This document shows, piece after piece, positions 530 to 11,029 of a DNA stretch of 64,000 bases. Origin of the DNA: Nitrospira defluvii (GTDB lineage: Bacteria > Nitrospirota > Nitrospiria > Nitrospirales > Nitrospiraceae). Under the pieces are notes generated by a model that was not told the DNA's origin, made no database searches, and saw only the letters and a list, made by a program, of their open reading frames with translations. The number at the start of each line of letters is the position of its first letter. Position 1 is the first letter of the stretch. The translations under genes were made by a program, and so were the position numbers. The stretch spans positions 310,001 through 374,000 of the forward strand of contig WYAX01000003.1 in NCBI GenBank assembly GCA_011525625.1, given 5' to 3'.

Positions 530-564
530 TTGACACAGTGTCGCCGCTAGGTGCCCATGTGTCA
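530..564 (+). promoter_or_regulatory. Possible promoter/operator of the PiT gene
   Basis: A perfect -35 hexamer TTGACA (530-535) overlaps the 11-bp palindrome GACACAGTGTC (532-542). A second GTGTCA half-site (559-564) lies inverted to the TGACAC at 531-536. No good -10 hexamer stands at 17 nt, so promoter function is uncertain. The sequence is not a recognisable Pho box. Confidence 0.2.
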
Positions 565-591
565 CCCGCTCTAACGGAAAAGGATTCTCCC

Positions 592-2208
592 ATGACACCC
601 CCTCCCGGCGAGACCATCGACACCGTTGCCGACCGACCGCTCAGTGCGTCGTTCGAAGACAACAGCTCTCAGATCGGCCTGTTTCTCATTCTGCTGCTCC
701 TCACCATCGGTGGAATCTATGTCGCCGGTCAATTGACCTCAGACCTATCCGACGTCCGCGCCTCGTCGGTCTGGCCGTTTGTGCTGCTCGGATTTGCACT
801 CTTGATCGCGCTGGGCTTCGAATTCGTCAATGGATTCCATGACACGGCGAATGCGGTGGCGACGGTCATCTATACGCATTCCATGCCGGCGCACGTCGCC
901 GTCGCGTGGTCGGGCATCTGGAATTTCATCGGCGTCATGCTCGCGTCCGGCGCGGTGGCGTTCGGCATCGTCGCCCTGCTGCCGGTCGAGCTGATTCTTC
1001 AAGTGAGCGCCGGAGCAGGGTTCGCCATGGTCTTCGCCCTACTGATTGCCGCCATCATTTGGAACCTGGGCACCTGGTACCTGGGACTGCCTTCATCCAG
1101 TTCGCACGCGCTGATCGGCTCGGTCATCGGCGTCGGCATCGCCAACCAGCTGATGGCCGCAGGCGGCACGAACACCAGCGGTGTCGATTGGGGACAAGCC
1201 CTCAACGTGGGGAAGTCCCTGTTGTTCTCTCCACTCATCGGATTTTCAGCCGCCGCGTTTCTTCTCCTCATTGCCATGAAGACCATCCCCATCGACAAAT
1301 TGTATAAGCCGCCGCGCGGCAAAACGCCGCCGCCCCTGTGGATCCGAGGCTTGCTCATTCTCACCTGCACCGGAGTCAGCTTTGCCCATGGCTCCAACGA
1401 CGGACAAAAGGGCATGGGCCTCATCATGCTCATTCTGATCGGCACGGTGCCGACCGTCTATGCGCTCAATCGCACCGTCGATGTCTCCTACGCGCCCGCC
1501 TTCGTCGAGGCGTCGACCAAAACGGAAGCCGTGTTCCAGCGGTACGCCAAGTCGTCGATGCCCCCGGCCGATCCACGAAAGACCGCGGCAGAGTACATCC
1601 GCACGCACGAGGTTCGACCGGATACCTTGCCGGCCCTGCGCGCATTGAGCGGCATGGTGCGCACACAGATCGCCTCCTATGCGACCGTCGCCCAGATCCC
1701 GACGGAACAGACCTCCAACGTGCGCAACGACATGTACCTGCTCGGAGAATCGCTGCGTTGGATGGACAAGACCCGCGAACCGGCTTTTACGCGAGCGGAT
1801 CGAGACATCCTGCTCCACTACAAATCTATGCTGGATAACGCCACCAAGTACATTCCGGTGTGGGTCAAAGCGGCCGTGGCGATCGCACTGGGGTTGGGCA
1901 CCATGATCGGATGGAAACGCATCGTGGTGACCGTCGGGGAAAAAATCGGGAAGACGCACCTCTCCTATGGACAGGGCGCCAGCGCGGAGCTGGTGGCCAT
2001 GACGACCATCGGCGCCGCGGACCTCTTCGGCCTACCGGTCAGCACCACCCAAGTGCTGTCTTCCGGCGTCGCGGGCACCATGGCGGCGAATCGATCGGGA
2101 TTGCAATGGCAGACGGTTCGGAGTCTCGCCCTCGCCTGGGTCATGACCCTCCCGGCGTCGATTCTGCTGTCGGGGACCTTATTCTGGCTCTTCCGGCACT
2201 TCGCCTGA
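592..2208 (+). CDS. PiT-family inorganic phosphate transporter
   Basis: Inner-membrane phosphate (or metal-phosphate) permease of the PiT/PHO4 family, 538 residues. The family signature is visible twice, as expected from its internal duplication: GFEFVNGFHDTANAVAT at about residues 73-90 and SFAHGSNDGQKGMG at about 262-275. Roughly ten hydrophobic segments are split by a long soluble region (about residues 300-420), a layout common in bacterial PiT proteins. I chose the ATG at 592 because AAAGGA stands about seven bases upstream; an in-frame GTG at 538 would add 18 residues of unlikely sequence. It is a single gene, convergent with the TPR gene downstream. Phosphate as substrate follows from the family. 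Confidence 0.92.
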   Translation: MTPPPGETIDTVADRPLSASFEDNSSQIGLFLILLLLTIGGIYVAGQLTSDLSDVRASSVWPFVLLGFALLIALGFEFVNGFHDTANAVATVIYTHSMPAHVAVAWSGIWNFIGVMLASGAVAFGIVALLPVELILQVSAGAGFAMVFALLIAAIIWNLGTWYLGLPSSSSHALIGSVIGVGIANQLMAAGGTNTSGVDWGQALNVGKSLLFSPLIGFSAAAFLLLIAMKTIPIDKLYKPPRGKTPPPLWIRGLLILTCTGVSFAHGSNDGQKGMGLIMLILIGTVPTVYALNRTVDVSYAPAFVEASTKTEAVFQRYAKSSMPPADPRKTAAEYIRTHEVRPDTLPALRALSGMVRTQIASYATVAQIPTEQTSNVRNDMYLLGESLRWMDKTREPAFTRADRDILLHYKSMLDNATKYIPVWVKAAVAIALGLGTMIGWKRIVVTVGEKIGKTHLSYGQGASAELVAMTTIGAADLFGLPVSTTQVLSSGVAGTMAANRSGLQWQTVRSLALAWVMTLPASILLSGTLFWLFRHFA

Positions 2209-2392: not shown

Positions 2393-3121
2393 TCAGGAGG
2401 GAGGCAAGGCCTGCAGCACCCGTTCGGCTTCCGGCTTGAACAGATGCATCCAACTGTAGGGATAGTGAGGCTGTTGCACCTCGATGACAGCCCGCAGATG
2501 CAGGCGCGCCTCGGCAAACCGGCGCTGCTTCATGAGCAATCGGGCCAGGATCAAATGCGCGTTCGTGTAGCGCCCATCCGCCTCAATCGCACGACGCAGG
2601 TACGACTCGGCCTCTGCCTCGCTCCCGCCGAGCACCCACGGCAGCTCGGCATAGAGCCCCCCCATCATCTGGAGCGCTTGCGGGTGAGTCGGGTCGATGG
2701 CCAACGCCTCTCGGAGGTGGCGCTTGATGTCGTTCAGTACCAGCCCCGCATTGGCAAGGCCTTTCAACCGCTCGGCACTTCCGAGAGTTGCCGCATACAG
2801 AAAATGGGCATGGGCCTGACGTGAATCGATGTGAAGTGCACGCTTGGCCATCGCCGCACCGGCCTCATAGGCCGATTGCCGCTGTCCCTCTTCGGTGAAC
2901 AGATCGTCGGCCATCTGCATGTAGAGCTCGGCTCCCTCCAGCAACGCCTTCACCTCATCGCCCGCTGAAGCAAGCCGGGACAGCACGGCGGCGAGCTCGC
3001 GTTCGAGAGATCGGGGATAGTCGGGGGGCAGGACATCCTGACCAGCCATGACCGGAGAGATGAACAGGCAACAGGCTATCCCGGCAAGAAGGAGCTGCGG
3101 ATATCTGACGTGGCGACGCAC
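2393..3121 (-). CDS. Exported TPR-repeat protein
   Basis: Last gene of the four-gene operon 7596-2393; 242 residues. An N-terminal signal sequence (LLLAGIACCLFISPVMAG, about residues 9-27) predicts export, with cleavage near AMAG-like VMAG. The rest is helical with tetratricopeptide-like units: KRALHIDSRQAHAHFLYAA (about 98-116), LREALAIDPTHPQALQMMG and LRRAIEADGRYTNAHLILA. The GTG at 3121 lies three bases after the stop of the Lgt-like gene, so translation is probably coupled; an in-frame TTG at 3127 is an alternative. TPR proteins are scaffolds, so it probably docks partners of the operon's membrane enzymes in the periplasm. That role is inference. Confidence 0.75.
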   Translation of the reverse strand: MRRHVRYPQLLLAGIACCLFISPVMAGQDVLPPDYPRSLERELAAVLSRLASAGDEVKALLEGAELYMQMADDLFTEEGQRQSAYEAGAAMAKRALHIDSRQAHAHFLYAATLGSAERLKGLANAGLVLNDIKRHLREALAIDPTHPQALQMMGGLYAELPWVLGGSEAEAESYLRRAIEADGRYTNAHLILARLLMKQRRFAEARLHLRAVIEVQQPHYPYSWMHLFKPEAERVLQALPPS

Positions 3122-3123
3122 GG

Positions 3124-4179
3124 TCAAATCTGATCCTGTGCCACCTGCATCGACACCGTCGATTGGGTCACTCGACTCCGGCCGGTGAACAGAAACATGA
3201 CGACCCATAACATTTGCAGACCGATCAGGACGCCCGGCTGCCACAGCGTGTGAACCCCGCGCAGCAGATCCGGCGGCGCAGACGGACCATCCGGCAACCA
3301 GAGAGTCAGCAGGCCGGCATAGACAACTCCGGCAAGGGAGAGCAGCTGATAGCGCGAAAAGGCCTGCCCGCCGCGGTAATCGGCGCGTAGATACTCCGAG
3401 ACAACTCGCCACACCTGCGTGACCAGGACCGTGACCAGAAATGCGGCGAGGAAGTGTCCCTGCAGGAACAACCACAACCCGACGATCCCTGCCGCCACGC
3501 AAACGCCGGCGGTCATGGCTTGAACCGGAATCAGAGGAATCGCATCCAGATGTCGTTCATAGGCTGCCTTTCTGGTGGATTCCGAAAAAACGGCATGGTG
3601 GCGGGCGAACAAGGTGGAGAGCCATCGATGGCTCTGCTCCAGGGGAGCGCCGTAGCAGCACCCGAAGCTTAAACAGGCCAGTCGCCCGGTGCCCTCGCCG
3701 AACGCATAGGCGATACTGACCACTGCCAGCACGGCGGTCATCGGCAGCGAGTCTACCCCCGACGCCCCGAGCCCGACATTCATCACCGCAACGACCCATG
3801 GCAGGAGCAGCAAGCCGAACATCGACGCGCCGCCCACCGTGAAGGTATTCGCCTTCCCCTCGATGAGACGTGCCAGCCCCTTGGCCGAGGGGACGCACGC
3901 GCCCAGCAGGATCGCCGCCAACGCCAGTATGCCGGTGAGAGACACGCCCACACTGCTCATCAACACCACGCTCCATGCCACCGCGATCACGACCGCGCTG
4001 GCGGTGAAGGCGCCATAGTAGGTCAGGTTGAGACCGACCCATTGTCCGTCAGGCCGCTTGGTGAGGGGCACCGCGGCGAGAAACTGCCACCCCTCCCCCG
4101 GCAAGACGCGAAAGGCCCACCAGAACAGTGCTGCGTAGAAGGTTACTAGGCCAAAGAGGACAAGTTCGTTGACGGCCAT
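3124..4179 (-). CDS. Lgt-like membrane acyl/glyceryl transferase homologue
   Basis: Polytopic membrane protein of 351 residues with seven or eight hydrophobic segments. Two stretches match the prolipoprotein diacylglyceryl transferase (Lgt) family: GEGTGRLACLSFGCCYG at about residues 161-177, corresponding to the conserved GR..(N/C)F.(N/G) region, and RVVSEYLRADYRGG at about 256-270, corresponding to the conserved E..R region. The Asn residues of canonical Lgt are replaced by a GCCYG signature, and the classical HGGL loop is not seen. It may therefore be a divergent Lgt or an enzyme using another acceptor. The start is five bases from the decarboxylase stop; the stop nearly touches the TPR start. 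Context links it to phospholipid chemistry. Confidence 0.7.
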   Translation of the reverse strand: MAVNELVLFGLVTFYAALFWWAFRVLPGEGWQFLAAVPLTKRPDGQWVGLNLTYYGAFTASAVVIAVAWSVVLMSSVGVSLTGILALAAILLGACVPSAKGLARLIEGKANTFTVGGASMFGLLLLPWVVAVMNVGLGASGVDSLPMTAVLAVVSIAYAFGEGTGRLACLSFGCCYGAPLEQSHRWLSTLFARHHAVFSESTRKAAYERHLDAIPLIPVQAMTAGVCVAAGIVGLWLFLQGHFLAAFLVTVLVTQVWRVVSEYLRADYRGGQAFSRYQLLSLAGVVYAGLLTLWLPDGPSAPPDLLRGVHTLWQPGVLIGLQMLWVVMFLFTGRSRVTQSTVSMQVAQDQI

Positions 4180-4183
4180 CCTG

Positions 4184-5191
4184 TTATCCTCCCTTTCTCC
4201 ACCCGATCGTCGAACGCACCTTCACATCGGTCTCGACCAGTGCACGACCGAATCCCTCCGAGAAGCGACTATACACCCCGGAGCGCAACCGGTTCCGGAC
4301 GAGGTCTTCGCAGAAGCGCACACGGCCGGGCTCAAACAGCAGCACATCCGTCGAACTACCCGGTCGATAGAGACTTTTCGGACGCCCCTTTTCAAGCATC
4401 ATCCCGACATGCATGGTTTTGGGATCGTCATAGGCGACCGAGGAGTAACATTGATCGATCTGTCCGATCATGAGGGCCACGATCTCGATCATCGCCACAA
4501 TGCCCACGCGCGATCCACCGGGCACCTCTGTGTCGAGAATCGTCACAACCCGTTTGTTTTTGGAGTAGGGCGTGGCCGCGACGACCACCGGCCCAGGGTT
4601 GCAGGAATGGTAACGCCCGGAGATTTCATACCAATCGAGCACCTGCCCGGCGACCGGCGTGTGATTGTAGTGGTATTTGTCCGGGGTCAGTCGGAAGATC
4701 GCCCAATCGCCTTGGCGAAACAGATCCCGCCAGGGCGCCCGATCGCAGCCGAGCAGTTCGTCATAGTCGAAAAACTTGCCTTTGAGAAACAGCGACGAGT
4801 CGTCGGCAAAGGACCCGAGGAGCAACCGGGCATCCGCGGGAGACACGACCGCCCGTGGATCGGCATCCATCGGCCGCACTTGCCAATACCGCACGCGCCG
4901 CTGGAACAGCCGACGCAGCGTATTGAGTCGCGTCGGATCGTCGAGGCACTCGGACAGGTCCACACCCAGCGTCCCGGCACAACGTGTCACCCCCTCCTGC
5001 GTCGCGGTAAACGGCCGGTCGTAGTTGAAGAACCCCAACACTTGCGTCATCCGCTGCGACGTCAGGGCCCTCATGAACCATGCGGCGTCCTCCCACAAGG
5101 CGCGATAGGCCCAATTGAGCCAACGGTCGCCGAGGAACTGTTCGGTCCTCACCAGGCCCGTCTCGCGATCGATATATTGATGCGGCGTCAT
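4184..5191 (-). CDS. psd: Phosphatidylserine decarboxylase-like protein
   Basis: Pyruvoyl enzyme converting phosphatidylserine to phosphatidylethanolamine at the inner membrane; 335 residues. Family landmarks are in order: SPADARLLLGS (catalytic-Asp region, about 116-126), LFRQGDW, RLTPDKYHYNHTPVAG (the DYH..H region, about 168-183), NKRVV, ILDTEVPGG, and the self-cleavage site in YRPGSSTDV (GSS, about 279-281). About 55 residues follow GSS, longer than in the E. coli enzyme. The ATG at 5191 shares a TGATG overlap with the upstream stop; a GTG at 5203 is the alternative. It sits between an unknown 801-residue protein and an Lgt-like protein, so its substrate may be specialised. Confidence 0.85.
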   Translation of the reverse strand: MTPHQYIDRETGLVRTEQFLGDRWLNWAYRALWEDAAWFMRALTSQRMTQVLGFFNYDRPFTATQEGVTRCAGTLGVDLSECLDDPTRLNTLRRLFQRRVRYWQVRPMDADPRAVVSPADARLLLGSFADDSSLFLKGKFFDYDELLGCDRAPWRDLFRQGDWAIFRLTPDKYHYNHTPVAGQVLDWYEISGRYHSCNPGPVVVAATPYSKNKRVVTILDTEVPGGSRVGIVAMIEIVALMIGQIDQCYSSVAYDDPKTMHVGMMLEKGRPKSLYRPGSSTDVLLFEPGRVRFCEDLVRNRLRSGVYSRFSEGFGRALVETDVKVRSTIGWRKGG

Positions 5192-7596
5192 CACGAGGCC
5201 CACGACTGTTCGTCCCGATGACTGTTCAACGCCTGGGATCGCGAAATGGCGAGAAGGCAGAGCCCCAGGGAACGAAGCAGGGCCTGGCTACCGGCGGATC
5301 CCGACAGGAGTTCCGGCGCCGTTTCCGTGAGCGCCTCGGCAGACGAACGGGGGCCAACCAGTGCGGTCGCAATTCCCCGGCACCGTCGATCTGTTTCGGA
5401 CTCAGCCTGGTCGATCGCACGCAGATCTTCCTCGACGCAGGTCAGGGCTTCCCGCACATACTGTGCACGCAACGGACCACGGTAATAACTTTCCGCCGCC
5501 TGGGCAAACTCCTCACCGGAGAGCCGCATCGGACGATCGACTCCCGCCACCTCCACAATCCCCCTCGTCAACTTTCCGGCCGTACCACACCGATCCGGTT
5601 CAAGGAGTCGTTCACGCAGTCGCACCAGATGGTCCCGGAGTTGAAAGGCCTCGATCAGTTCCGGCGCATCGTCTTCAATCGTCGACAGGAGCGCCAACCG
5701 ATAGTCCTCGATCCGGACTCGCAAATGTCCCGCATAGCGCCGGCTGCTCCTCGTCTTCTGCGTACGACCGACAATACGCGCCAGAAACCGGTTCGGACCG
5801 GCCTCGCGCACATTCACGGTCGCGACCCCGATGGCCGAGGCGAACATGCACTGCCGGCGTTCGCTTTCGGTAAAGGGATCGTCGGGGATATCCTCGTGGG
5901 TCACCTGCCCCGTGGCAACGTACCGAAAGGCCAACGCCGTCACCAATGCCTGCAGACTGGCCGCATCGGCAAAATCTTCCAAATGATTCGAAAACAGACT
6001 GTAGTGTCGACCTTCGAAACCCGAGAATCCCATCACCGACTGTGCACGCAGCTTGTAGCAGAGATAGAGCGACATCCGTTCGTCGAACACGCCGAGTTGC
6101 CCGAGATCGCGTCTGAGCCGGAAGTCATTCCCCAGCAGGCCGTCGAGCGCCGGACTTTGATCGGTCGACAACAGCGACACCAAATAGTCGATGAGCCGGA
6201 AATCCGGCACGTAGTCTCCGCGAAGGTGGAAGAGCGCACTGAGGGCACGATCCAACCACATGGGACCGACCGGCGTGATGGCCCGACCGAAGACCGACAG
6301 TTTCGCTTTCTTCTTCCAGCGCCGCCACAACATGCGCAAATGGGTAAAGTCCAGTTCGTGGGGCAGAAATCCCAGCGCCAGCTCGGGATGGAAATCTTGA
6401 AAATTCATGCGGTAAGGCGCCGCGCTATAGGTCCCGACAAACAGCGGCAGAAAATGCTCCACAATCTTAATGACGAGATCCCCGACCACCTTCTCGTGCG
6501 CGGGGGTATAGCGTTTCGTCCCGGCCCGCAACACCTCGCTCAACCGTCGGCTGCCGAGGCTGAGGTGCGTACCGTTGTTGGCCAGGCTGATATTCGACGT
6601 GGACGGCAACACCACCAGATTGCGCGTGATGATGCCGGCATCCTTTAATCGGAGCACGGCATTCAGTTGGCTGCGTGATAACACTTCATGACAGAGTCCC
6701 ATATAGCGGGACTTCTCCTCCCCTCGTTCCCATCCGGAGAGGCAGGGGTTCATGAACAGTTCGCGATAGAAGGCATCGGAGACGAGATGATTGAGGCGCC
6801 GCTGCCGCATGGGAGGGTGCGGCGACGCATACACCACCACACATTGCCCGCGCTCCTCCAATCCGAATCGCCTGTTCGCATACAGCACCAGCAAGTGGGT
6901 CAGCAGAAAGCGAATCGCCGTTTCTCGCGCAATCCCTGTTCCCATTCCCCCGGAGGGTTCCATGCGGGACACATAGAACGAAAAGGTTTCCGGCGAACTG
7001 TTATCGTTCAGGAAATGATCCAGCAGGCGCCGGCTCTCGCTCGCCAGCGTCGGCACATGCTCTTCGAATTCGCCAAGCACCTCGGCCAAGGTCAACGTCA
7101 AGAGATAGCTGATAGGAAGCCGGACCCACTCCTCCCCCTGCTCCACCAGCAGATACCGGTCGACATCGGCGCGACGAGGCCCTTGCGGGGCGCGTTTATC
7201 GGCCGCCAGGTCTCGCTCCAGGAGCTGAGTGGCCGCCCGGTTGAGGCAGCGCCGCGGGAAACGGACCCATGAGTTTTCCCACACGGTCGCCTCGGAAGAC
7301 GTCAGCAACTCCTGTAACTGACGAATGAGGATGCGAGGACTGTCTCCCGCCGCAGTCCGCTCCCGGATATTCTTCACATAGTTCGAAGCATGAATCGTGC
7401 GCGGCAGATCCACGTCCTCGGAACGGCCGCAGACCGCCGCTTGCAGCTCGCTCTCTGAACCGGCAGTGATGTCGTCGTGAGAAAAGGGCAACGCCGGAAG
7501 GTCGGCAAGGAACTGAATGGCCTGTCGCTGAAGCTCATGGCGGGGTTCGGCTGCGTGGAGAGCAGCATCGGAGGGAATCGCAGTCGTTCGACTCAT
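5191..7596 (-). CDS. Large protein of unknown family heading the psd operon
   Basis: An 801-residue predicted cytosolic protein with no signal peptide and no clear membrane helix. I do not recognise any domain. It is rich in Arg and Leu, largely helical in appearance, and has several ordered blocks: SNYVKNIRER (about 74), FYVSRMEPSGGMGTG (about 208), VVLPSTSNISLANNGTHLSLGS (about 333) and a region around MGFSGFEGRHYSLFSNHLEDF (about 530). The GGMGTG glycine loop could be a nucleotide or cofactor contact, but no Walker motif is present. The ATG at 7596 has GGAGG four to five bases upstream; the GTG at 7602 is too close to that site. It overlaps the decarboxylase start by one base, so the two products are likely made together. 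Confidence 0.8.
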   Translation of the reverse strand: MSRTTAIPSDAALHAAEPRHELQRQAIQFLADLPALPFSHDDITAGSESELQAAVCGRSEDVDLPRTIHASNYVKNIRERTAAGDSPRILIRQLQELLTSSEATVWENSWVRFPRRCLNRAATQLLERDLAADKRAPQGPRRADVDRYLLVEQGEEWVRLPISYLLTLTLAEVLGEFEEHVPTLASESRRLLDHFLNDNSSPETFSFYVSRMEPSGGMGTGIARETAIRFLLTHLLVLYANRRFGLEERGQCVVVYASPHPPMRQRRLNHLVSDAFYRELFMNPCLSGWERGEEKSRYMGLCHEVLSRSQLNAVLRLKDAGIITRNLVVLPSTSNISLANNGTHLSLGSRRLSEVLRAGTKRYTPAHEKVVGDLVIKIVEHFLPLFVGTYSAAPYRMNFQDFHPELALGFLPHELDFTHLRMLWRRWKKKAKLSVFGRAITPVGPMWLDRALSALFHLRGDYVPDFRLIDYLVSLLSTDQSPALDGLLGNDFRLRRDLGQLGVFDERMSLYLCYKLRAQSVMGFSGFEGRHYSLFSNHLEDFADAASLQALVTALAFRYVATGQVTHEDIPDDPFTESERRQCMFASAIGVATVNVREAGPNRFLARIVGRTQKTRSSRRYAGHLRVRIEDYRLALLSTIEDDAPELIEAFQLRDHLVRLRERLLEPDRCGTAGKLTRGIVEVAGVDRPMRLSGEEFAQAAESYYRGPLRAQYVREALTCVEEDLRAIDQAESETDRRCRGIATALVGPRSSAEALTETAPELLSGSAGSQALLRSLGLCLLAISRSQALNSHRDEQSWAS

Positions 7597-7735
7597 CAAC
7601 ACCTCCCGGTGATCGTCCGCGGATCGTTCATGCCGATATGGCTCGAGCGTACCGCCGACCTGTTACGAATAGCTCATCGACACAGAAATGTTGTGTAACA
7701 AGAGGGACCGGGGAGCAGAGGGAGAGAGGACGTCT

Positions 7736-8410
7736 TCACGCCAACCGGCGCAGCAGTCGCTCGAGCGTCGTGGTCTGCAACGAGGGGACGACGACATCGG
7801 CTGCCGAGAGACGAGACTCAGGCAGGGTGGTGGCCACCGCGATGCACCGCATCCCGGCCTGATGAGCGGCCTCAATGCCGTGCGGTGTGTCTTCGATGGC
7901 CACACACTCGTCGGCCCGCAGCGCCGACCGGCGATTCAGTGCCGCAAGGGCATGGAGGTAGAGCGCGGGGGCAGGCTTCCCTTGGTGCACATCCTGTGCG
8001 GCCGACACATGCTCAAACAGGGATGCCATGCCGGCCAACTCCAAACACAAGGCGATTTCCTCCCGTAACGCCCCCGAAGCCACGGCCGTGCGGTATCGCG
8101 ACGCAACAGTCTCGACACAATCCCTGACACCGGGCACAACAGGGAGCCGGGCTCGCAACGATGCCTGCATGAGCTCCGTCTTGCACTGTACCAGCCGCGC
8201 GACCGTCTCGGAGGAGGCCGGAGATCTGCCGTGATCGGCGAGGACGGCGCGGAAACAGGCGGGATCGGTGAGTCCGACGTAGCGTGCGTAATAGACCTCC
8301 GGCGCCAGCGAGATCCCTTCCATGCGCAACACCTGCCGGAACATGTCGAAATGCAGCGGTTCCGTGTCGAACAGCACGCCGTCGAAATCGAACACAATCG
8401 CTTTGACCAT
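7736..8410 (-). CDS. HAD-superfamily hydrolase, phosphoglucomutase-like subfamily
   Basis: Cytosolic phosphatase/mutase of the haloacid dehalogenase superfamily, 224 residues. Motif I FDFDGVLFDTE (residues 7-17) holds the nucleophile Asp and the acid/base Asp. The helical cap follows (about 18-90). Motif II is the Ser/Thr in TAVASGA (about 110-117), the motif III Lys is in HQGKPAPALY (about 144), and motif IV is ECVAIEDTPHGIEAA (about 168-182). This arrangement fits beta-phosphoglucomutase-like and phosphoglycolate-phosphatase-like enzymes; the substrate cannot be told from sequence. It is monocistronic, 140 bases upstream of the unknown operon on the same strand. Confidence 0.88.
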   Translation of the reverse strand: MVKAIVFDFDGVLFDTEPLHFDMFRQVLRMEGISLAPEVYYARYVGLTDPACFRAVLADHGRSPASSETVARLVQCKTELMQASLRARLPVVPGVRDCVETVASRYRTAVASGALREEIALCLELAGMASLFEHVSAAQDVHQGKPAPALYLHALAALNRRSALRADECVAIEDTPHGIEAAHQAGMRCIAVATTLPESRLSAADVVVPSLQTTTLERLLRRLA

Positions 8411-8634
8411 GACACGCCTTCCCTCTACGCCAAGATACCCGTTCGTCGCCGCGCCCTGCCAGCGACACCGGCAATCTTGAGCGACACTTAATGTTCCCGT
8501 AACCGCACTCCTCTACAGTGATCCTCTCGACCGAGCCCGGCCTGCTGTGCCTGGATAAGCGTCAATCACGTACAGGCTTGCAGTCTTGCTTCCACTCACC
8601 TCATCATAGGTAACGTTTCCAAAGAGAACCGCCG

Positions 8635-9753
8635 ATGCCGAATCCTGTCGCCACCTCACTGCGTATCGAACAAGGCACCTGTTACGCCCTGTTCGCCTAC
8701 GACATCGGTTTGGCCATTCACCTCGACGAAGCGGAACGGCATATCACGGCCATCAAAGAGCGCGGCCGCATCCGGCATAAGGCCCGGGCACCGCAATACT
8801 TCGACTATCGCCCGGCGCCGCTTCGCCTCACGCAAGACGGACAGGTCTTGGAATTCGGCACCTACCGCTCGCAAGCCGCGGTCGAGGTCATGCTCTATGA
8901 CTTCGGCGCCGTCACCGTCATCTACCGCATTCCCATCGAGGGGCCTTTCGAGAGCCTGTTGGGATTAAGCGAAGCGCTCTACGAAAACGACACCTTGCGG
9001 ACGGAATCTCGCCGGCGATTGGAACAGCTGGTGCGGGATATTCAGCCCGCTGTCGAGCGGCCCACGATGTCCGACGACGTCGAGGACTATCTGCTGTTTG
9101 CGATCGAACGCTGTACGCCGCCCGACATTCACACGCTCGGCACCCTCTACGACCATCTATTCGCGCGTGTGCTCCGCAGCGAGGCCACACCGCTGTCCGA
9201 CCAGGAGATCCATGAGGCGACGTCCTGCCGCATCGCATTCAGTCGCGGCGACCTCGCCCTCATCGACTGGAATGCGGCCCTCATATTCGGGCAGGGCATG
9301 GAAGACGTGCGGGCAGTGCTGGAGTTCGTCAACGTGGAACTGCTGGAGATGCGCACGCTGGATCAACAACTCGACAGAGCCCTGGACGAGGGATACGAGG
9401 CGCTTACGCGAAGGCCCGGTCGCAAACTGTGGTTGCCTGGTTCCCACGAACGAGCCGTGACCCACATCGGGCAGTTGCAGGTCGAGAGTGCGGTGCTCTT
9501 CGAACGGGTCGCGAACACCCTCAAACTCCTCGGCGATCAATACCTGGCCCGTGTCTACCGTCTGGCCTCGCAACGGTTCCATCTCGACGCGTGGGACGCC
9601 AGCATTCTGCGGAAACTGCAAACTCTGGACAGCATCTACGGCAAGATGGCCGATCGTTCGACGACTCAGCGGATGGAGTATCTGGAATGGATCATTATTG
9701 TCCTGATCGCGCTCTCGATCGTGCTCTCGTTCCTTCCATCCTCGGGGCACTGA
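8635..9753 (+). CDS. RMD1/YagE (DUF155) family membrane-anchored protein
   Basis: A 372-residue protein of the RMD1/YagE (DUF155) family. Family features visible are the N-terminal ALFAYDIGLAIHLDEAE, the RAPQYFDYRPAPLRL segment, the FGAVTVIYRIPIEG strand and the conserved FSRGDLALIDWNAALIFG region (about 202-219). The protein ends with a helical coiled part and a single C-terminal transmembrane helix (WIIIVLIALSIVLSFL, about 352-367), the family's usual tail anchor. Eukaryotic relatives act in mitochondrial translation and sporulation; the bacterial role is not settled. A long upstream region (8411-8634) probably holds its promoter. Confidence 0.85.
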   Translation: MPNPVATSLRIEQGTCYALFAYDIGLAIHLDEAERHITAIKERGRIRHKARAPQYFDYRPAPLRLTQDGQVLEFGTYRSQAAVEVMLYDFGAVTVIYRIPIEGPFESLLGLSEALYENDTLRTESRRRLEQLVRDIQPAVERPTMSDDVEDYLLFAIERCTPPDIHTLGTLYDHLFARVLRSEATPLSDQEIHEATSCRIAFSRGDLALIDWNAALIFGQGMEDVRAVLEFVNVELLEMRTLDQQLDRALDEGYEALTRRPGRKLWLPGSHERAVTHIGQLQVESAVLFERVANTLKLLGDQYLARVYRLASQRFHLDAWDASILRKLQTLDSIYGKMADRSTTQRMEYLEWIIIVLIALSIVLSFLPSSGH

Positions 9754-9829
9754 CGGGCAGGCCTTTCCGCTAGGCTTCCGGAAACAGGTGTGTTACAAGC
9801 CGTACAACCTAACCCGTGACTGGTGATCG

Positions 9830-11029
9830 GTGTCCAACCCTGCAAGGACGAGACAACTGGCAAGCCTGTTCGGCATCGTCGCCGCCCTGAGTTCGGCCGG
9901 TTGCCTGTCGCCTCCCACCTTGAACCGGGCGGTCCTCGCCTATGACGAGGCCATCACCGATGCGATCTCGAAACAGTTGCTGATCAATATCGCCAGGGCG
10001 CACCATCACGAGCCGATTCACTTTACCGGTGTGGCCAACGTGGCCGCCACATTCGATTTCCGCATCACTGCCGGAGCGACCCCGACTCTCACCGGCGAAC
10101 ATGGCCGCACTCTGATGCCGTTGTTCGGCGGGTCCATCGCGGAGAACCCCACCATCAGCATCGCGCCGATCGAAGGAGAAGAATTCACCAAGCGGCTTCT
10201 GGCGCCGTTCCAGGAGAGCAAGCTTACCCTGCTGCTCCGGCAAGGCGTCGACATCGATCTCCTCTTACGACTCATGGCGAACGAGCTCCGGTTGAAACAC
10301 CAGGGCGAGGAAATCGCCTACCGCAACAGGCCGTCCGACAAAGACGACTACGAGATGTTCCGCAAAGTCGTCTTGCATCTCTCGGCCATTCAAGACGCCA
10401 ACCGGCTCTATGCGGAAGCGATGACGTTCGAGCGCACCTGGACCATTCCCGCTGAATCCGTCACGGCGGAAGGCTTCGCTGCGCTGGAACAGCAATACCT
10501 GATCGCCTATCTCCCCGAGCAGCGGGCCTACATGCTCCGCAAGCCGGTGTCGGGTCGGATTCTCATCACCAACTACGATCCCGCGACCCTTCCGCCCGAT
10601 GAACGGATTCGATTGCACGAAACCGCCGACCAACGGCCCGCGAACGATGTGTCCTTCGATATTCGGCCCGGCCATATCGGCGGAGAATGGCCGATGCGCG
10701 GGGATTTCAGACTGCGCAGTTTCAACGCTATGCTGAATTTCTTGAGTCGCTCCGTCGATGACGAGCGCGAATATGACGTCGACAAGGATCTTCGGACACC
10801 GTCCGTGGCGGAAAATCCCGTCCACACGATGGAGTTGCTGATCTCAGACCGGGCGCCCGAGGCCTCGGCCCTCTTTGTTCGCTCGCATGGGCGCTACTAT
10901 GCCGTGAACGGAGAAGGCCCGTTGGGCCGGTGGAATCGTGAAGCCTTCAAGCTGCTGACGCAACTATTTCAGATGACCGTGACCGAAGTTCCTCGTAGCG
11001 GCGTCCCCGGCATCACCATCGCAAAATAG
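9830..11029 (+). CDS. Lipoprotein of unknown function
   Basis: A 399-residue predicted lipoprotein. The N terminus has a hydrophobic run and a lipobox SSAGC with Cys at about 25. The mature protein starts LSPPTLNRAVLAYDEAITDAISKQ, then an INIARAHHHEPIHFTGV segment and a beta-rich core; I do not recognise a named family. The start is a GTG with only a weak ribosome site. It precedes the DUF481 gene by 130 bases on the same strand, so both may serve the outer envelope. The high-quality lipobox and consistent coding character make the gene secure; the function is not known. Confidence 0.75.
   Translation: MSNPARTRQLASLFGIVAALSSAGCLSPPTLNRAVLAYDEAITDAISKQLLINIARAHHHEPIHFTGVANVAATFDFRITAGATPTLTGEHGRTLMPLFGGSIAENPTISIAPIEGEEFTKRLLAPFQESKLTLLLRQGVDIDLLLRLMANELRLKHQGEEIAYRNRPSDKDDYEMFRKVVLHLSAIQDANRLYAEAMTFERTWTIPAESVTAEGFAALEQQYLIAYLPEQRAYMLRKPVSGRILITNYDPATLPPDERIRLHETADQRPANDVSFDIRPGHIGGEWPMRGDFRLRSFNAMLNFLSRSVDDEREYDVDKDLRTPSVAENPVHTMELLISDRAPEASALFVRSHGRYYAVNGEGPLGRWNREAFKLLTQLFQMTVTEVPRSGVPGITIAK

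Follow-up and report, generated by a model that had tools for sequence, protein, structure and literature searches.

What would a bacterium do with an operon in which relatives of two phospholipid enzymes, a phosphatidylserine decarboxylase (PSD) and a diacylglyceryl transferase (Lgt), are encoded immediately behind a large protein, here called UNK? This question is raised by four genes near one end of the window (the whole stretch of Nitrospira defluvii DNA analyzed, 64,000 nucleotides). The initial annotation placed the four genes on one strand in tight succession, and this layout and its junctions were confirmed at positions 7596 to 2393 of the minus strand (Table 1). The UNK and PSD-like genes meet in a TGATG overlap, inside which lies the ATG start of the PSD-like gene; a 4-base gap separates the PSD-like and Lgt-like genes, and the TPR gene begins with GTG two bases past the Lgt-like stop. 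Pfam assigned the second gene to PF02666 (PS_Dcarbxylase; 118 bits, cutoff of 22) and the third to PF01790 (LGT; 36.5 bits, cutoff of 24.9). Elsewhere in the window (8635 to 11029), a pair of genes with no Pfam family (372 and 399 aa) precedes a DUF481 gene.

Table 1. Features of the operon, its surroundings, and a related deletion scar (positions in the window unless another stretch is named)
Feature	Position	Strand	Description
UNK gene	5191..7596	-	801 aa; ligase-fold candidate, putative new family
PSD-like gene	4184..5191	-	335 aa; pyruvoyl-type decarboxylase family; PF02666
Lgt-like gene	3124..4179	-	351 aa, membrane protein; diacylglyceryl transferase family; PF01790
TPR protein gene	2393..3121	-	242 aa; TPR models; N-terminal signal-peptide-like segment (by eye)
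PiT/PHO4-family phosphate permease gene	538..2208	+	Convergent neighbor of the operon
Conserved upstream footprint TTGTTACACAACATTTCTGTG	7681..7701	-	Shared by Nitrospira orthologues; similar to a PHO-box half-site with a second, weak one
Conserved footprint TCGTAACAG	7660..7668	-	Nitrospira orthologues
Remnants at the G206 scar (UNK, Lgt-like, TPR)	L193 (G206:C58:90000-101000), 5585-5932 and 7976-10617

A scan of public genomes returned 284 stretches encoding UNK relatives, 80 of which were examined as loci; these came from Nitrospirota, Desulfobacterota, Geobacter relatives, Syntrophales, Brocadia, and Nitrospinota. Many of the hosts are bacteria of soils and sediments. The order and strand of the UNK, PSD-like, and Lgt-like genes (the trio) were the same in every locus with full-length copies of all three (64/64; Nitrospirota, Desulfobacterota/Geobacter relatives, and Brocadia), and the arrangement is therefore not unique to this genome. 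Both intergenic gaps were shorter than 200 bp in 49 of these 64 loci, and the insertions found among them lay mostly between the PSD-like and Lgt-like genes. Inter-locus distances of the three proteins were strongly correlated with one another (Pearson 0.88 to 0.93), a pattern consistent with their being inherited as one block. Among 296 Nitrospirota genomes, the strong matches to UNK and those to the Lgt-like protein fell in an identical set of 14 (Fisher P = 3 × 10−24, a value that, like that for gene neighborhood given below, is inflated by phylogenetic dependence). Conservation of the trio is far beyond chance. One genome (G206) carries a deletion scar in which UNK residues 32 to 101 are followed closely by the Lgt-like C terminus and then the beginning of the TPR gene; the order of these remnants indicates that the middle of the operon was deleted there. 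Genes for a calcineurin-like phosphatase and PhoD lie near this scar. The TPR gene was found in Nitrospirota loci only. The conserved core is thus the first three genes, with the TPR gene a lineage-specific accessory of Nitrospirota, and the docking part first proposed for the TPR protein does not belong to the core.

Other genes recur in or beside the trio. A DksA-like gene sits between the PSD-like and Lgt-like genes in Syntrophales-type loci (L036, L047, L053, L054, L057, L070, L072, L073, and L080), an insertion that may represent a regulatory link. A protein of ∼800 residues, with a PHP-like N terminus (by eye) and a GT4 glycosyltransferase C terminus (Pfam), is often encoded near the trio (L056:3830-6238 and 14 other loci) and lies between the PSD-like and Lgt-like genes in L081 and L089. 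Many Geobacter-type loci (L030:12334-13815 and similar) carry genes for a DUF2062 membrane protein and a zinc-dependent phospholipase C-like protein directly after the Lgt-like gene.

The two recognizable enzymes are not the genome's housekeeping copies. Another psd (contig C32) and another lgt (contig C2) are present in the same genome, both with better family scores, which rules out a housekeeping reading and bears out the initial view that this is no ordinary psd or lgt context. Since the gene order is conserved and canonical copies exist elsewhere, a specialized lipid system is well supported.

The PSD-like protein aligned with E. coli Psd over 267 columns (probability 98.3). It scored well above the family cutoff (PF02666) and has kept the catalytic residues: equivalents of E. 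coli D90, H144, H147, and S254 are retained, and D121, H175, and H178 are conserved, as is the GSST of the cleavage-site region at 279 to 282 (numbering of P0002, which is one residue longer). It differs in that the cleavage site reads GSST and not GST, and it fell under every NCBIfam equivalog cutoff. The pyruvoyl-forming serine, S281 (or S280), is conserved, and judging from the sequence, self-cleavage could break either the G-S or the S-S bond. Pyruvoyl decarboxylases require a substrate with a free alpha-amine, which limits the reaction orders possible in a pathway.

In the Lgt-like protein, the invariant residues R166, R258, E262, and R265 correspond to R143, R239, E243, and R246 of the E. 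coli Lgt donor site, where R239, E243, and R246 are mutation intolerant and R143 has been called essential for catalysis (PMC4728403). The structural model matched E. coli Lgt (5azb) with a Z score of 13.7 (next row, 4.7), so that the fold and the phosphatidylglycerol donor-site residues are shared with Lgt (PF01790). In contrast to canonical Lgt, however, there is no equivalent of the acceptor-side H103, which is essential in E. coli (PMC4728403); this position aligns with F121 in GGASMFG, HGGL is missing, and the signature motif is GRLACLSFGCCYG in place of GRLGNFINGELWG. The protein is also below the equivalog cutoffs (TIGR00544, 17.6 bits against 118.9). Because the four donor-site residues are retained while H103 and the motif are replaced, we consider the donor site kept and the acceptor side changed.

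UNK itself had no match in Pfam, NCBIfam, or PDB sequences in profile searches, the Pfam GCS2 and Pup_ligase families included. Profile-profile comparison (hhalign), a search suggested in the initial annotation, gave no significant match to PafA, YbdK, or GshA, although the PafA comparison is weakened by 2 of the 20 rows in that profile being wrong-frame open reading frames. We rejected the idea that UNK is one of the genome's own Pup/UBact-type ligases, since PF03136 finds four other genes here and not UNK; PF04107 found no gene in this genome. The four PF03136 genes form two PafA/Dop-like pairs (G000:C26:101413-105816 and G000:C32:612342-617191), and a four-copy complement is common in the host's family.

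The AlphaFold model of UNK (26 aligned sequences; pTM 0.84, mean pLDDT 77) had no match in a viral fold library and no significant one in Foldseek (best E value of 0.17, to GshA). With a second structure aligner, the model matched YbdK (1tt4; Z 13.8, 329 residues, 3.9 Å), PafA (4bjr; Z 13.8, 360 residues, 4.1 Å), bifunctional glutathione synthetase (3ln7; Z 13.6), Dop (4b0r; Z 13.2), and GshA (2d32; Z 12.6). The top 17 rows all belonged to the carboxylate-amine ligase superfamily (Z 9.3 to 13.8), and the next unrelated row had a Z score of 5.2. Three motifs mark this superfamily (PMC2588565): ExE/ExH on core strand 1, [HD]x[NH] on strand 4, and Ex[RK]x2D on strand 6. The first is present in UNK as G46-x-E48-x-E50 (G46-S-E48-S-E50 on the first predicted strand, 43 to 50), with the G and both E residues invariant in the 26 aligned sequences; YbdK alignments start at model residue 41/43 with chain residue 10/12, which, unless there is an early gap, puts E48 and E50 on YbdK residues E17 and E19. 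The invariant H344-x-S346 (strand 342 to 349) is the likely counterpart of the second, its strand being assigned by order only, and it deviates as HxS from the usual HxN/H. E528-G-R530-x2-S533 (strand 525 to 532) compares with the third and deviates in having S533 in place of D after ExR. Conserved motifs of UNK follow superfamily order, namely, DNxSPE (198 to 203), THxS (343 to 346), LPLFVGTYSAAPYR (383 to 396), and FEGRHYS (527 to 533); of these, LPLFVGTYSAAPYR is comparable to YbdK FVPHFIALSAASPY in a short match returned by hhalign, and FEGRHYS is comparable to GshA YIEVRSLD.

UNK is thus like GCS2/YbdK, GshA, and PafA/Dop in its predicted fold (over 325 to 392 residues) and in having GxExE on strand 1, a late-core ExR, and an invariant core-strand His. 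Unlike them, it has no profile-detectable sequence relation to the group, contains large inserts within its 801 aa, and is coupled to PSD-like and Lgt-like genes. From the predicted fold and motifs, we conclude that UNK probably represents a new family in the carboxylate-amine ligase superfamily (glutamine synthetase [GS] fold). The model supports the fold and the metal-site motif, and from these we infer ATP-dependent amide-bond ligase activity. UNK had been proposed to supply a substrate or acceptor; given the fold matches of the model, it is better read as a putative ATP-dependent GS-fold ligase than as a passive acceptor.

These three proteins might maintain phospholipids or lipoproteins under stress without forming one chemical pathway: the PSD-like enzyme would make phosphatidylethanolamine, the Lgt-like enzyme would modify special lipoproteins, and the ligase would make an unrelated thiol or peptide, all under common regulation. 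Retention of the Psd catalytic residues and of the Lgt phosphatidylglycerol site is consistent with such roles. However, canonical psd and lgt genes exist, both the H103 essential to Lgt and the HGGL motif have been replaced (PMC4728403), and the trio genes have been gained and lost together, which fits one pathway better. We regard independent roles as unlikely.

A connection with phosphate, missed in the initial annotation and suggestive of the trio's physiological role, emerged from the surroundings of the trio. Phosphate or polyphosphate genes (PhoU, PstSCAB, PPK1, Ppx, PiT, and CYTH-CHAD, counted within each locus stretch) were found near the trio in 33 of 80 loci, whereas none occurred in 58 stretches of 18.3 kb taken at random from five genomes (Fisher P = 4 × 10−10, which is optimistic since the loci themselves supplied the queries and related loci are not independent observations). 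They were also present in 8 of another 11 Nitrospirota stretches, some of which come from organisms already counted. The genes lie outside the trio's operon and differ by lineage (PiT, pst-phoU, ppk1, ppx, or CYTH-CHAD). As supporting evidence only, because the 20 host genomes were chosen after the first tally, PhoU was seen within 8 kb 6 times against 0.16 expected (20 loci and their host genomes). In several Nitrospira orthologues, the PiT permease gene stays beside the operon. In the genome under study, the pst-phoU cluster (L217:858-9836) continues into a Ppx/GppA-like gene; pstS and a response-regulator-like gene are transcribed divergently there, with an 11-bp-period repeat between the two.

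Upstream regions gave a second line of evidence. In an unbiased scan for repeated pentamers upstream of UNK, a period of 11 bp ranked first. The matrix derived from half of the UNK upstream regions, T[TG]T[CAT]ACA N4 T[TG]T[CAT]ACA, reached at least 10 bits in 53% of the other half, compared to 16% of neighboring genes and 3% of shuffles, and this UNK-trained 11-bp repeat was present in 75% of pstS upstream regions. When training was confined to 12 pstS upstream regions, the resulting matrix matched 24 of 41 UNK upstream regions (loci deduplicated at 75% identity) versus 22 of 107 controls, and matches at UNK favored this spacing (59% at period 11 versus 7 to 27% at other periods). The E. coli-type PHO box CTGTCAT was not enriched upstream of UNK. 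Taking the relatives together, UNK upstream regions are enriched in a PHO-box-like direct repeat with an 11-bp period; hosts with a strong box include Geomonas, Citrifermentans bremense, and Trichlorobacter thiogenes. The window's own promoter scored low with the PHO-box matrix (4.8 bits), and the strict box pattern had no instance in its own genome. Nitrospira orthologues share the upstream footprint TTGTTACACAACATTTCT ... TCGTAACAG, in which the GTAACA of TCGTAACAG lies 33 bp (three times 11) after the GTTACA in the first element. TAnnCT, also conserved and a candidate -10 element, follows ∼8 bp past TCGTAACAG. The genome's own pstS carries ATTAACACGTCATTAACC (ATTAACA N4 ATTAACC, period 11, by eye). 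Given the low matrix score of the operon's own footprint, the case for Pho control here is no more than suggestive.

The best reading of these data is that the trio is part of the phosphate-starvation response in many hosts. The same lipid pathway could instead serve another purpose, e.g., redox or membrane stability in anaerobes, with its phosphate link an accident of neighborhood. Consistent with this, 47 of 80 loci have no phosphate gene in the examined stretch (some being short contigs), the other frequent neighbors are DUF2062, DksA-like, glycosyltransferase, and PLPC-like genes, and the window's own promoter lacks a clear box. Against it, lineages differ in which phosphate genes they carry near the trio, none of the 58 controls has any, and the PHO-box signal is independent; we think it improbable.

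Because a transferase with an altered acceptor side, a decarboxylase, and a ligase are inherited together and tied to phosphate genes, we place slightly more than even confidence in the trio being a phosphate-starvation pathway that converts diacylglycerol from phosphatidylglycerol into an amide-containing, probably phosphorus-free aminolipid. In such a pathway, the Lgt-like protein would bind phosphatidylglycerol and move diacylglycerol to a small acceptor, not to a lipoprotein cysteine, with release of glycerol phosphate. The PSD-like protein would take CO2 off an amino acid bearing, or later to bear, the diacylglycerol, and UNK would spend ATP on joining a carboxylate and an amine of the head group through an amide bond. 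As one concrete chemistry, cysteine or serine could accept the diacylglycerol on its thiol or hydroxyl, and the product would be a phosphatidylserine analogue lacking phosphate; its decarboxylation might then yield an analogue of phosphatidylethanolamine, whose amine the ligase could cap, for instance, with glutamate. The end product would be a phosphorus-free zwitterionic aminolipid standing in for phosphatidylethanolamine when phosphate is short. What the sequences show is that the genes are conserved, that their products have these predicted folds and keep catalytic residues, that phosphate genes lie nearby, and that relatives carry PHO-box-like sites; from this we infer every reaction, the step order, the final lipid, and Pho control of the window's own operon. 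Which head group is made is a guess, and the step order is uncertain because the site of Lgt action is periplasmic, whereas the ligase has to work in the cytosol. Of the earlier interpretation, the specialized lipid system has stood, and the parts given to UNK as supplier of a substrate or acceptor and to the TPR protein in docking have changed.

The main rivals of this pathway are the independent roles considered above and, least probable of all, lipid-to-protein or -peptide conjugation, in which a PafA-like ligase would join a small protein or peptide, through its carboxylate, to a lipid amine made by the PSD-like enzyme (a logic comparable to that of Atg8-phosphatidylethanolamine): PafA and Dop are among the best UNK fold matches (Z 13.8 and 13.2), PSD products bear a free amine, and the Nitrospirota version adds a TPR protein, but no small conserved protein stands out in the neighbor clusters (open reading frames of at least 60 aa), and YbdK and GshA, filed as small-molecule ligases, match UNK about equally well.

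The proposed phosphate-starvation aminolipid pathway has a parallel in Desulfovibrio alaskensis, a sulfate reducer in which phosphate starvation brings about remodeling through OlsF ornithine lipids and Agt glycolipids (PMC5193443). The likely purpose of the trio is similar, and several of its hosts are also sulfate reducers; however, it shares none of the core enzymes. Known bacterial aminolipids are built by N-acyl and O-acyl transferases (PMC11631085), whereas the trio would use a decarboxylase, a ligase, and a diacylglyceryl transferase. As that sulfate reducer makes its known phosphorus-free lipids with OlsF and Agt and known aminolipids depend on acyltransferases, the trio would be a separate route, and our literature search found no paper linking PSD, Lgt, and a GS-fold ligase. 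Our confidence falls a little short of even that the trio specifies a phosphorus-free diacylglycerol aminolipid of a class not described before (in which a new ligase family would work with a diverged decarboxylase and with a diacylglyceryl transferase acting on a small molecule) or, as the more radical option, a bacterial form of peptide-to-membrane-lipid conjugation. If true, widespread nitrifying, metal-reducing, and sulfate-reducing bacteria would make a lipid for which the literature we found names no genes, and the three genes would be a handle for finding it. The Lgt reaction would then be used in bulk lipid synthesis, and the GshA/PafA ligase superfamily would gain a lipid-acting branch. 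In anoxic waters, phosphorus-free lipids are taken to indicate that phosphate is limiting (PMC5193443), so that another such lipid whose genes are known would be of interest to biogeochemists.
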